NCBI RefSeq assembly: GCF_014678725.1 | Contig: NZ_CP061497.1 | Span: 744,001 to 808,000, forward strand | Length of the DNA stretch: 64,000 bases | Origin: Thermomonas sp. XSG | Lineage (GTDB): Bacteria; Pseudomonadota; Gammaproteobacteria; Xanthomonadales; Xanthomonadaceae | Reading direction: 5' to 3' | In this document: positions 9,959 through 13,411 of the stretch, in pieces | Layout: each line of letters starts with the position of its first letter | Position numbering within the stretch: the first letter of the stretch is position 1 | The notes under the pieces: generated by a model | What the model was told of the DNA's origin: nothing | The model's input: only the letters and a program-made list of their open reading frames with translations | Database searches by the model: none | Program-made: the position numbers and the translations under genes

Positions 9959-11263
9959 TCAGGCGAACCGCGCCGGATCGAACGGCTCCGGGTTCACGCA
10001 GGGCGTGCGGCCGGCGATCATGTCGGCCAGCAGCTGGCCGGTGCTGGCACTCATGCTCACCCCCATCATGCCGTGGCCGACAGCCATCCACAGGTGCGGA
10101 TGGCCGGGCGCCCGCCCGATCAGCGGGATGTCATCGCGGCTCATCGGCCGCCATCCACACCACTTCTCGCGCACTTCCGGGCCGACCGGATGGTGCAGGA
10201 ACTGCGCCGCGCCACGCTCCAGCGCACCCAGGCGCTTCTCGTTGAGGCTGTCATCGAAGCCGGTGAATTCCATCGTGCTGCCCAGCCGGTAGCCGCTGCC
10301 CCAGGCGGTCACGCAGACCGACGGCTCGTAGAGGATGACCGGACGCTTCGGCGCCAGCGGCGGCGAGCTGTAGGTGATCGAATAGCCCTTGCCCGGCTGG
10401 ATGGTCTTGCGCAGCCAAGGCAGGCCGACCTCCGAGGCGATCTGCGGCGACCATGCACCAGTCGCCAGGATCACGTCGCGCGCGCGCAACTGGCCCTGCG
10501 CGGTGGTGGCCAGCACGCCCTGCGCGCCGGACGCCAGCGACTGCAATGCGCAATGCTCGATGATCCGCCCGCCGCGCGCGCGCACGACGCGGGCCAGCTC
10601 GGCCACGTAGCGGTCCGGGCGCAGCGCGGCATCGCCGCGGAAGCACATGGCGCCGGCCAGGCCGGGCTTGAAGGCGGGATCGCGCGCTTCGTAGTCGCTG
10701 CCCTCGACGACTTCCACATCCACGCCCAGCTCGTTCAGCAGCGGCACGTCGCCCAGTTCGCGGTCCAAGTCGCGGCGGGTTTTGAACACGTAGTCCTCGC
10801 CGGTTTCGGCGAACTCGCAGTCCAGCGCGTAGCGTTCCACCCACTGCTGGATGCGCTGGCGCGAATCCGACAGCAGGGTGTACTTGGCGCGGGCGCTGGC
10901 CACGTAGTCGCGGTGGTTGCAGCGCTGCATGAAACCCAGCATCCAGCGCAGGGTGTCGGGATTCAGGGTGGGCTTGATGTACAGCGGCGCGTCGGGGGTG
11001 AACATCCAGCGCGCGGCACGCAGCAGCGTGCTTGGGCCCGCCAGCGGCGGCGCGTGGCTGGGGGTGAGCGTGCCGCAGTTGCCGTGCGAGGCGCCGGCGC
11101 CGACCTTGCCGGCATCGATCACCGTCACTTCACGCCCATCGTCGAGCAGCGCCAGCGCGGTGGCAAGCCCGGACACGCCGGCTCCGACCACGAGGCAATC
11201 GATGGATTCTTCGGCGATGGCTGCGCTCACGATGTCCGGCGTCCGCTGGGAAAGAACGCCCAT
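9959..11263 (-). CDS. FAD-dependent D-amino-acid dehydrogenase family protein (DadA-like)
   Basis: The roughly 434-residue protein begins with a Rossmann FAD-binding motif (CLVVGAGVSGLATALALL), followed by the acidic end of the second strand (VTVIDAG), and has the DAO-family C-terminal GWRPMSRDDIPLIGR and AVGHGMMGVSMSASTGQ. This matches DadA-type dehydrogenases, which pass electrons from D-amino-acid oxidation to the respiratory chain. D-hydroxyproline dehydrogenases look similar, so the substrate is open. The start at 11263 (MGVLSQRT) or a GTG at 11230 are both possible. It sits near other D-amino-acid genes (dgcN, dgcA). Confidence 0.82.
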   Translation of the reverse strand: MGVLSQRTPDIVSAAIAEESIDCLVVGAGVSGLATALALLDDGREVTVIDAGKVGAGASHGNCGTLTPSHAPPLAGPSTLLRAARWMFTPDAPLYIKPTLNPDTLRWMLGFMQRCNHRDYVASARAKYTLLSDSRQRIQQWVERYALDCEFAETGEDYVFKTRRDLDRELGDVPLLNELGVDVEVVEGSDYEARDPAFKPGLAGAMCFRGDAALRPDRYVAELARVVRARGGRIIEHCALQSLASGAQGVLATTAQGQLRARDVILATGAWSPQIASEVGLPWLRKTIQPGKGYSITYSSPPLAPKRPVILYEPSVCVTAWGSGYRLGSTMEFTGFDDSLNEKRLGALERGAAQFLHHPVGPEVREKWCGWRPMSRDDIPLIGRAPGHPHLWMAVGHGMMGVSMSASTGQLLADMIAGRTPCVNPEPFDPARFA

Positions 11264-11344
11264 TATCAGGGCGTGGGCGCCGCCGGGACAGCCCGTCGCC
11301 GCCCGCCAGCAACGGAGTGACGGCATGCCGGCCCCGGGAACGCG

Positions 11345-11368
11345 AACGGCCCGCGAGGGCGGGCCGTT
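11345..11368. terminator. hairpin terminator-like element (first hairpin of an array)
   Basis: A perfect 10 bp stem (11345-11354 with 11359-11368) and a GAGG tetraloop. It lies in the gap between slyD and the DadA-like gene, both leftward, and is well placed to end the slyD transcript, although no U-tract follows. It also forms the left end of the hairpin array described separately. Confidence 0.55.
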
Positions 11369-11388
11369 GCGATGCAGCTGTTACCCAG

Positions 11389-11507
11389 CCCCCTGAGTCA
11401 GGGGGCGATTCGTGCCGCAGGCACGAATGGGGGTCTGGCAGCGAACAGCGGGGCCCAAGGTTTGCGTAGCAAATCTTGGGATTGATTCATGCGCAGCATG
11501 GATCAAT
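11389..11507 (+). repeat. array of four further tight hairpins next to slyD
   Basis: Four more inverted repeats follow in 119 bp: 11389-11405 (CCCCCT stem around GAGTC), 11408-11428 (9 bp stem, GCA loop), 11454-11480 (12 bp stem, GTA loop) and 11481-11507 (12 bp stem, GCA loop). The last one overlaps the slyD stop codon. The two 12 bp stems each contain one non-Watson-Crick position that is G-U in plus-strand RNA but A-C in minus-strand RNA, which favours plus-strand transcription. It may be a mobile or repetitive intergenic element or a structured RNA. Function unknown. Confidence 0.65.
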
Positions 11508-11985
11508 GCGCGTGGCCGCCCTCGCCGTGCACGTGGCCGTGGGCGATCTCTTCCTCGCTGGCCTCGCGCACTTCGACGATCTCGATGTCGAATTCCAGGT
11601 CCTTGCCCGCCATCGGGTGGTTCAGGTCCACGTCGACCACGCTCATGCCCACCTTCTCGATGGTCACCGCGCGCGGGCCGAAGTTGGTGTTCAAGACCAC
11701 CTGCATGCCCGGGGCGAGCTTCTGGTCGCCGAAATGCTTCTTGGGAATGCGCTGGGTCAGCCCGTCGCGGCGCTCGCCATAGGCCTCGCTGGCGGTGACC
11801 GCGGCCTTGAAGCTGTCGCCGGCTTCATGGCCGTCCATCGCCTTTTCCAGGCCGGGGATGATCTGCCCGCGGCCGAACAGGATGGCCAGCGGCTCGCCCA
11901 CGGCCTTGGAGCTCTCCAGCTGCTCCTTGCCGGCCTCGGCCACGGCGTAGTGGAAACGGACAACGCGGTCTTTTTCGATCTTCAT
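11503..11985 (-). CDS. slyD: FKBP-type peptidyl-prolyl isomerase, SlyD family
   Basis: SlyD is a cytoplasmic prolyl isomerase and chaperone, and often a metal-binding protein. The 160-residue product starts MKIEKDRVVRFHYAV and carries GRGQIIPGLEKAMDGHEAGD and VDLNHPMAGKDLEFDIEIVEVREA, which are diagnostic. The inserted-flap region is present. The C-terminus ends HGHVHGEGGHAH, a short histidine tail that could bind nickel or zinc. The start at 11985 is chosen because upstream residues of the open frame have no family similarity. Confidence 0.95.
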   Translation of the reverse strand: MKIEKDRVVRFHYAVAEAGKEQLESSKAVGEPLAILFGRGQIIPGLEKAMDGHEAGDSFKAAVTASEAYGERRDGLTQRIPKKHFGDQKLAPGMQVVLNTNFGPRAVTIEKVGMSVVDVDLNHPMAGKDLEFDIEIVEVREASEEEIAHGHVHGEGGHAH

Positions 11986-12047
11986 GATGTGCCTGCCAAT
12001 CGGTTGGGCGCTTGCCGCCGCATGCGGTTGCGGCAACACTGCGCGGG

Positions 12048-12608
12048 ATGGAACCAGCCGACTGCATCCAGCGACCGGGCGCGCATTATCGACGCTGCGC
12101 CGCGCTTGCGCCATTGCCGGGCCTGCTGCTGGCCGCCGCGCTGGCCGGCTGCGGCGGCGGCAAAGCCACCCGCGACCCGCCGCCACGCCCGGTCGCCCGC
12201 GACTGGCCGATCGTGGCGCCGGCCGACCCGGCCAAGGCCAACGCGGTGCTGATGCGCGCCATCAGCCTGGTCGGCACGCCCTATCGCTACGGCGGCAACA
12301 CCCCCGAAGGGGGCTTCGACTGCAGCGGCCTGGTCGGCTACGTATTCCGCGACATGCTGGACCTGCGCCTGCCGCGCACCACCCGCGAACTGGCGGCCCT
12401 GCAGGGCCCACGCATCCGGCCGGAGCGGCTGGCAGGCGGCGACCTGGTGTTCTTCGGCAGCGCCGGCCAGGTCAGCCACGTCGGCATCTACGTAGGCCAA
12501 GGCCGCTTCGTCCATGCGCCCAGCAGCGGCGGTACGGTCCGGCTTGATTCCCTCGACGGACACTGGTGGATCGACCATTACTCCGGGGCGAGACGGCTGC
12601 TGAAGTGA
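12048..12608 (+). CDS. NlpC/P60 family lipoprotein (peptidoglycan endopeptidase)
   Basis: NlpC/P60 enzymes cut peptide bonds in peptidoglycan stems, usually gamma-D-Glu-DAP. This 186-residue protein has a hydrophobic leader ending in a lipobox (LAGC, Cys35), so it is probably lipid-anchored in the periplasm. The catalytic domain follows directly: Cys92 in FDCSGLVGYVFR, GGDLVFFG, and the histidine in VSHVGIYVG. It is the first of two tandem paralogues. The start at 12048 is uncertain because no ribosome-binding site is evident. An upstream ATG at 12012 is in frame. Confidence 0.9.
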   Translation: MEPADCIQRPGAHYRRCAALAPLPGLLLAAALAGCGGGKATRDPPPRPVARDWPIVAPADPAKANAVLMRAISLVGTPYRYGGNTPEGGFDCSGLVGYVFRDMLDLRLPRTTRELAALQGPRIRPERLAGGDLVFFGSAGQVSHVGIYVGQGRFVHAPSSGGTVRLDSLDGHWWIDHYSGARRLLK

Positions 12609-12754
12609 AACGTGAAGCCCGTCACGAAAGCTCGCATCCCGATGATGGATATGTGAATTCCTGCCTATTCATCTTGCTCCAGCTAACAGTTTCTGAACTT
12701 CCCGACCCGTCTTCGCAGGCATAGTCGCCCCTGTTTTTGCCTCGTGATGACCGC

Positions 12755-13411
12755 GTGAAGACAGCGAACCTGCCCCACGGCCATTCCGCACCGCGTTTCC
12801 GTCGCGTGCTCCGACTGGCCCTTGCCCTCGCCCTCGCGGCGGGCAGCCTGCCGGCACTGGCGATGAATCCCGCGATTTCCAAGGCTGACCCCGTGTCGCA
12901 GACCGCGCCATCGGCGGCGGCCAGCGTGCTGGCCCTGCCCGCCCCGGCGGCCATCGCCACCCCCGATACCGCGCCGCTGTCCGCACAGCTCGCCATCCTG
13001 CAGAAGGCCAAGGACGCGCCTACCAGCCCGTCGCTGGTCAAGACCGTGCTGCAGCGCGCTATCTCCCTGCTCGGTACGCCCTACCGCTGGGGCGGCAGCT
13101 CGCCGGAAAGCGGATTCGACTGCAGCGGCCTGGTCGGCTACGTGTTCCGCACCATCGGCATCGACCTGCCGCGCGTGTCGCGCGCGATGGCCGATGAAGG
13201 CACCAAGGTGGCAAGCCGCGACGCGCTGGCCGAGGGCGACCTGGTGTTCTTCGGCAAGCGCGGCCACATCGACCACGTCGGCATCTATGTCGGCGAAGGC
13301 AAGTTCGTGCACGCACCGCGCACCGGCCGCGACGTCACCGTCTCCAGCCTGACCAGCGGCTATTGGGCGCAGAAGTATCTCGAGGCGCGGCGCCTGGCCA
13401 CCGGCAGCTGA
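12755..13411 (+). CDS. NlpC/P60 family secreted endopeptidase, second paralogue
   Basis: This 218-residue protein shares the catalytic core of the preceding gene, including the identical stretch FDCSGLVGYVFR with the nucleophile cysteine, EGDLVFFGKRG and the histidine in DHVGIYVG. It differs in having a conventional signal peptide (LALALALAAGSLPALA) with no lipobox, followed by about 70 residues of Ala/Pro-rich linker. It is therefore probably soluble in the periplasm or secreted. The GTG at 12755 is my choice. A TTG at 12737 is in frame and no clear ribosome-binding site decides. Confidence 0.88.
   Translation: MKTANLPHGHSAPRFRRVLRLALALALAAGSLPALAMNPAISKADPVSQTAPSAAASVLALPAPAAIATPDTAPLSAQLAILQKAKDAPTSPSLVKTVLQRAISLLGTPYRWGGSSPESGFDCSGLVGYVFRTIGIDLPRVSRAMADEGTKVASRDALAEGDLVFFGKRGHIDHVGIYVGEGKFVHAPRTGRDVTVSSLTSGYWAQKYLEARRLATGS

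Follow-up and report, generated by a model that had tools for sequence, protein, structure and literature searches.

A hairpin block beside slyD in Thermomonas sp. XSG may well be a copy of a dispersed, polarised palindromic DNA repeat of the Lysobacteraceae

On balance, the evidence somewhat favours reading positions 11388-11507 of the window, the 64,000-nucleotide stretch of the Thermomonas sp. XSG genome analysed here, as one copy of a dispersed, polarised and composite palindromic DNA repeat of the Lysobacteraceae that would be maintained by folding and template switching. The order of its parts is fixed: hairpins H2 and H3, a G-rich linker, and hairpins H4 and H5.

Five hairpins at the 3' end of slyD

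The block lies between the 3' end of slyD and the open reading frame to its left, an FAD-dependent oxidoreductase gene, both genes being on the same strand. A first-pass annotation had described an array of five hairpins in 163 bp (11345-11507), and a direct hairpin check of the sequence found every one of these stems. They make up five of the 18 strong hairpins of the whole window, and the fold of 11340-11515 (−105.4 kcal/mol) is well beyond chance on either strand, with a z of −7.0 (none of 200 shuffles as good) and of −7.4 for the minus strand. H2, placed earlier at 11389-11405, is a real hairpin whose bounds were one base short on each side. The features are as follows.

11345-11368, minus strand: H1, 10 bp with a 4-base loop, palindrome AACGGCCCGC/GCGGGCCGTT; probably slyD's own terminator, outside the repeat
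11388-11406, plus strand: H2, perfect 9+1+9 palindrome GCCCCCTGAGTCAGGGGGC; outer hairpin of the repeat, a module also seen in other copies
11408-11428, plus strand: H3, 9 bp, ATTCGTGCC-GCA-GGCACGAAT, followed by GGGGG; its stem varies among copies yet stays paired
11429-11453, plus strand: linker with G runs (GGGGG..TGG...GGGG) directly before H4; near-invariant columns in alignment A1
11454-11480, plus strand: H4, 12 positions, CCCAAGGTTTGC-GTA-GCAAATCTTGGG; the best conserved of the four hairpins
11481-11507, plus strand: H5, 12 positions, loop GCA; variable, abuts the neighbouring gene and holds the slyD stop codon (11503-11505)
11388-11507, plus strand: whole repeat copy, H2 to H5; matched by model R1 at 11388-11508 (genome 755388-755508)
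11503-11985, minus strand: slyD-like FKBP-type peptidyl-prolyl isomerase, the host gene (Pfam FKBP_C, E 4.3e-11)

On the plus strand, the imperfect position reads G.T in H4 and T.G in H5. Both 12-position stems thus carry, as first described, a pair that is G.U on plus-strand RNA and A.C on minus-strand RNA.

Inspection of the slyD flanks in 25 congeners separated H1 from the other hairpins. Many congeners without H2-H5 still have the H1 palindrome after slyD (for example L043, L047, L049, L052, L057, L060 and L063), so H1 probably is slyD's own terminator and not part of the repeat unit, even though its T-rich tail is weak in the window. H2-H5 are found at slyD in only four of the 25 (G000, which is the Thermomonas sp. 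XSG genome, G018, G020 and G022), where they add sequence between the slyD stop codon and the terminator; G023 has what looks like a remnant. What had been presented as a single array therefore consists of one unit, H2-H5, and a separate H1 that fits a slyD terminator. In the idea of a plus-strand RNA antisense to the end of slyD, the overlap with slyD is incidental, because the repeat sits mostly at other loci.

Occurrence of the unit in related genomes

A BLASTN search with the block, the copy count first suggested, returned only a single copy as a whole in its own genome, a result that by itself would have hidden the family. A covariance model, R1, instead found relatives in 19 of 25 congeners, and 18 of these 25 had at least two matches, so that the unit occupies non-orthologous sites within one genome. 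The alignment behind R1 includes the window copy (L039), whose score of 90.3 bits (E 3.9e-19) is therefore high by construction. At many unrelated intergenic loci of the congeners the same unit recurs with its hairpins in the same order, and the earlier suggestion of a composite repeat family with mobile palindromes proved right for H2-H5.

A search pattern for H4 gave 16 matches in the 25 congeners, and across the family it matched 58 of 247 genomes and 21 of 54 genera; its reversed control matched in no genome searched. Across 274 genomes of the class, R1 matches were found only in genomes of its own family and in one doubtful genome, and the repeat is almost confined to the Lysobacteraceae (Xanthomonadaceae). 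The doubtful genome, G391, belongs to a different family of the class and has two weak neighbouring matches (L387 and L391) that resemble H3-H2 only (CCCCGGCGC..GCGCC GCCCCCTTTATCAAAGGGGGC); judged from these letters, the H3-H2 module may be older or wider in range than the whole unit. Among the matches listed in a scan of named genomes were Lysobacter, Stenotrophomonas, Xanthomonas, Pseudoxanthomonas, Luteimonas and Thermomonas, together with MAGs of less precise title. Copies per genome range from none to at least 92, and one genome holds 92 exact matches to the H4 pattern, with units lying head to tail every 113-124 bases.

The Thermomonas sp. XSG genome has three R1 matches, the window copy and two weaker relatives. 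L390 (G000:C1:312002-312085) lies after another gene, has H5, H3 and H2 and lacks H4; a TGA stop codon apparently falls inside its H5, as at slyD, and a typical terminator comes next. L394 (G000:C1:1133791-1133892) is an eroded copy 3' of rnpB that has kept H5 and H4 and lost H3 and H2. The sX13 and SRP RNA loci of this genome (L429 and L476) look like decayed former copies, and the close relative G018 is intact at both.

Inward polarity at housekeeping RNA genes

The 56 R1 matches in the genus, with E up to about 1e-6, were set against RNA genes located with Rfam. Nearly half of them (26/56) abut one of three genes: 11 lie at RNase P RNA (rnpB), 10 at sX13 and five, in four genomes, at SRP RNA. 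Orthologous sites were filled in 10 of 24 cases for sX13 and in four of 25 for SRP RNA. The sX13 gene itself (L422-L441) is kept by nearly every congener, three matches being under the Rfam cut-off and G014 having none.

For rnpB, 130 loci of the family were chosen regardless of the element; 62 had R1 matches and 59 could be oriented by script. All 91 copies scored at these 59 loci point H5 inward, 77 from the 3' side and 14 from the 5' side, and 10 rnpB genes are flanked by copies on both sides. All 10 sX13 copies and all five SRP RNA copies likewise have H5 toward the gene. With respect to rnpB, 3' copies have an antisense plus strand and 5' copies a sense one, and the polarity therefore follows the ends of the gene, not the direction of transcription. 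The rnpB copies are alike across Xanthomonas-like loci (L232, L239 and L273). At Stenotrophomonas-like rnpB loci (L225, L226 and L256) the element is absent, and GTAG-type or other palindromic repeats occupy the same 3' spot, which looks as if it were a hotspot for palindromes. Neighbouring coding genes occur in all four arrangements at similar frequency; a rule based on their orientation was rejected, there being no overall bias; among genes at most 60 bp away, upstream plus-strand ones were in slight surplus (22:9).

The fixed orientation toward rnpB, sX13 and SRP RNA could suit a structured RNA, or a module borne on an mRNA or sRNA, made from the plus strand, with a role in trans or in antisense regulation of the adjacent RNA genes. 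We regard this as possible and rather unlikely. Such a regulator would not be consistently antisense, as the two sides of rnpB illustrate, and the even mixture of coding arrangements speaks against it too. In addition, the scan showed no promoter-like site near the window copy, no conserved upstream box was seen by eye, and there is no Rfam family for the element.

Covariation and strand preference of the stems

Pairing was assessed for H2 and H4 in an alignment of 43 diverse copies, with shuffled and slid structures as controls. Standard pairs made up 97.9% of the total, and sliding the partner by one base lowered pairing to about 65%. Two-sided changes (counted as cells) numbered 34 against 10.1 in shuffles, and the covariation score was 0.231 against 0.151; neither value was reached in 500 shuffles, and slid structures scored much lower. 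Nearly all two-sided changes are in H4, for which the conservation and covariation expected of a real structure were thus found. H3 and H5 were assessed by a direct hairpin search that gave 78 and 138 distinct sequences, respectively, with few mismatches; for H5, the pairing is seen in 138 distinct, mostly paired stems.

We then compared G.T with A.C on the plus strand, counted per distinct hairpin. The ratio was 86:11 for H4 (143 distinct), 27:3 for H5 (138 distinct), 5:1 for H3 and 3:1 for H2; the alignment of H2 was not used for wobbles because its stem length varies and the alignment is imperfect there. By site, the excess in H4 was 22:3 at the 3' side of rnpB, 8:0 at its 5' side and 67:10 elsewhere. 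The H4 figure is inflated by ancestry, since two positions, which may share descent, supply 71 of the 86 G.T pairs. H5 is the better witness to the strand because its sequence differs from site to site. The plus-strand bias, weak when it stood on two wobbles at slyD, thus holds family-wide over the distinct H4 and H5 hairpins. Its explanation as a by-product of transcription is weakened, for the bias is the same at the 3' side of rnpB, where the plus strand is antisense, and in 11 distinct H4 hairpins at the 5' side, where it is sense. The unpaired G runs are near-invariant in alignment A1, which hints at a function beyond pairing.

These G.U-compatible wobbles, the covariation of H4 and the conserved unpaired linker would all suit the plus-strand RNA discussed above. 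As far as the sequences tell, the strand preference fits a fold of single-stranded DNA as well as it fits RNA.

The element could instead be a cassette that terminates transcripts of highly expressed genes or protects their 3' ends, working in the gene sense or in both directions. Its GC-rich stems, its location 3' of rnpB, sX13, SRP RNA and slyD, and a plus-strand T run after H4 in some sX13 and rnpB copies are compatible with such a role. Yet slyD and sX13 still have terminators of their own (probably H1 in the first, U tracts in the second), 14 rnpB copies lie at the 5' side, and the rnpB wobbles (22:3) are A.C on the gene-sense strand. T runs after H4 or H2 are not general and none occurs in the window, where a scan of 11000-12300 gave no terminator-like site. 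A cassette of this kind is therefore a distinctly unlikely explanation.

H5 and the host site

Filled and empty sites could be compared at two of the RNA genes. Empty SRP RNA sites read CCGCC-TTTTCGGGC or close variants (TTTTCGGGC in G024), and the filled site of G018 reads TTTTCGGGC-TTC-GCCCGAAAA, followed by H4. At sX13, the empty site has CTTTTTATTG after the terminator stem, and the filled one has CTTTTTATTGCC...GGCAATAAAAAG. Judged by this comparison, the gene-near arm of H5 is host sequence at both genes and the far arm repeats it in inverted orientation. In nearly all copies 5' of rnpB, H5 includes a −10-like TAGAAT (e.g., L268, L290, L322, L333 and L342), and on this motif the rnpB promoter seems to be built partly from the repeat. 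Housekeeping RNA genes can thus be bracketed by inward-facing palindromic repeats that even overlap the rnpB −10 region.

Lysobacter maris contradicts a universal copying of H5 from the host: its H5 hardly varies among many sites, and the copying is retained as an observation specific to the sites above. Copies in L. maris are 72% identical in their cores and 28% (random) in their flanks, and many of them adjoin GTAG-type (CTAC-ended) REPs; from this pattern, it was apparently a finished unit that multiplied in this lineage. Outside L. maris, the case for mobility comes from presence or absence and from dispersion, because old copies passed on by vertical descent are numerous.

Otherwise similar copies of L. 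maris have H3 stems in which several paired bases are changed. Template switching creates and maintains hairpins and leaves multi-base paired changes as its mark (PMC8794818), and the H3 differences bear that mark. The element could accordingly be pictured as a neutral quasi-palindrome relic with neither function nor mobility, its stems kept perfect by template-switch correction only. The G.T:A.C asymmetry, the near-invariant G runs, the placement of 26 of 56 genus copies beside three RNA genes, and the inward polarity all need more than a mutational process, and we consider a pure relic very improbable.

Relation to known elements

The repeat is, on sequence comparison, like REP/BIME elements in kind, differing in its lack of a tag, its four fixed hairpins and its unpaired linker. 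With the RAYT-associated GTAG/CGTC elements of, for example, Stenotrophomonas and Xanthomonas it shares short GC-rich intergenic palindromes, clustering, many copies in some genomes and compensatory pairing. In contrast to them, it combines four different hairpins in fixed order with a conserved linker that is single-stranded, all within about 115-120 bp, faces inward at RNA genes and has few copies in most genomes. Neither a GTAG/GGAG nor a CGTC end tag is conserved at either end of H2-H5 in the 43 aligned copies and in diverse copies, and the GTAG in the H4 loop of the window is not conserved among copies.

Palindromes of this kind could in principle be mobilised by a REP-associated tyrosine transposase (RAYT), as REPs and BIMEs are. 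The repeat is intergenic, palindromic and variable in copy number, it often adjoins CTAC-ended REPs in L. maris, and matches to RAYT-like proteins were obtained in 18 of 25 congeners, in four of them over the curated cut-off. The unit nevertheless has no tetranucleotide tag and no match by eye to the Xanthomonas and Stenotrophomonas REPs in PMC2817692, and four genomes with copies (G008, G009, G012 and G020) have no RAYT match, three of these assemblies (G008, G012 and G020) being incomplete. With no tag and no firm link to RAYT, this association is not supported, and we judge it improbable.

Like MITEs, the repeat is short, non-coding, dispersed and presumably non-autonomous; it differs in having no noticed terminal inverted repeats or target-site duplication and no identified partner transposase. 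Neither repeats nor duplications were seen by eye between filled and empty slyD, sX13 and SRP RNA sites, where divergence of the flanks blurs the footprint. Template-switch hairpins (PMC8794818) have in common with it a second arm that is an inverted copy and multi-base paired changes between close copies; here these come together with a dispersed element body and strand-biased wobbles. Covarying stems are shared with structured RNAs in Rfam (sX13, anti-hemB and others), and H2-H3 weakly resemble anti-hemB at a sub-threshold E of 0.005. On the element itself, Rfam searches at gathering and relaxed thresholds gave no family above its gathering score, and the Rfam matches at copy loci are the neighbouring RNase P, SRP, sX13, asX1 and tRNA genes only. 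The repeat apparently has not been described before: we found no published description in the open literature, and an older account in subscription journals may exist.

Proposed origin and upkeep

In the favoured reading, a DNA repeat maintained by folding and template switching, the element would be non-autonomous and would settle beside gene ends or strong hairpins already present. At the insertion site, template switching would copy the host flank in inverted form and so produce the second arm of H5, and pairing would be made and renewed by template switching during replication. It would be the fold of the plus strand, formed by single-stranded DNA or with lower likelihood by RNA, that is recognised or that selection keeps. 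Copies would then spread by ordinary recombination or, in L. maris, as passengers between GTAG-type REPs; no transposase that explains the repeat was identified.

A guide-like or copy-back insertion is a more doubtful version of events. Here the element would enter at the foot of a strong hairpin, and the H5 arm would be a copy of 9-14 target bases in inverted form, either made as such or selected for it, through a plus-strand single-stranded intermediate and a putative enzyme. The hairpins concerned, likewise a tentative assignment of low probability, would be the P1 stem of RNase P RNA, entered at both its feet, the end of SRP RNA and the sX13 terminator.

About 60 rnpB loci, together with the filled and empty sX13 and SRP RNA sites, provide a compact natural data set on how long perfect hairpins arise and are kept paired. 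The outcome would be a site-selective repeat of a new class or an RNA so far unrecognised. Close to the slyD copy, the window also contains two adjacent paralogous genes (12012-12608 and 12737-13411) with long shared DNA repeats that are 77-78% alike, the first encoding an NlpC/P60 family protein.
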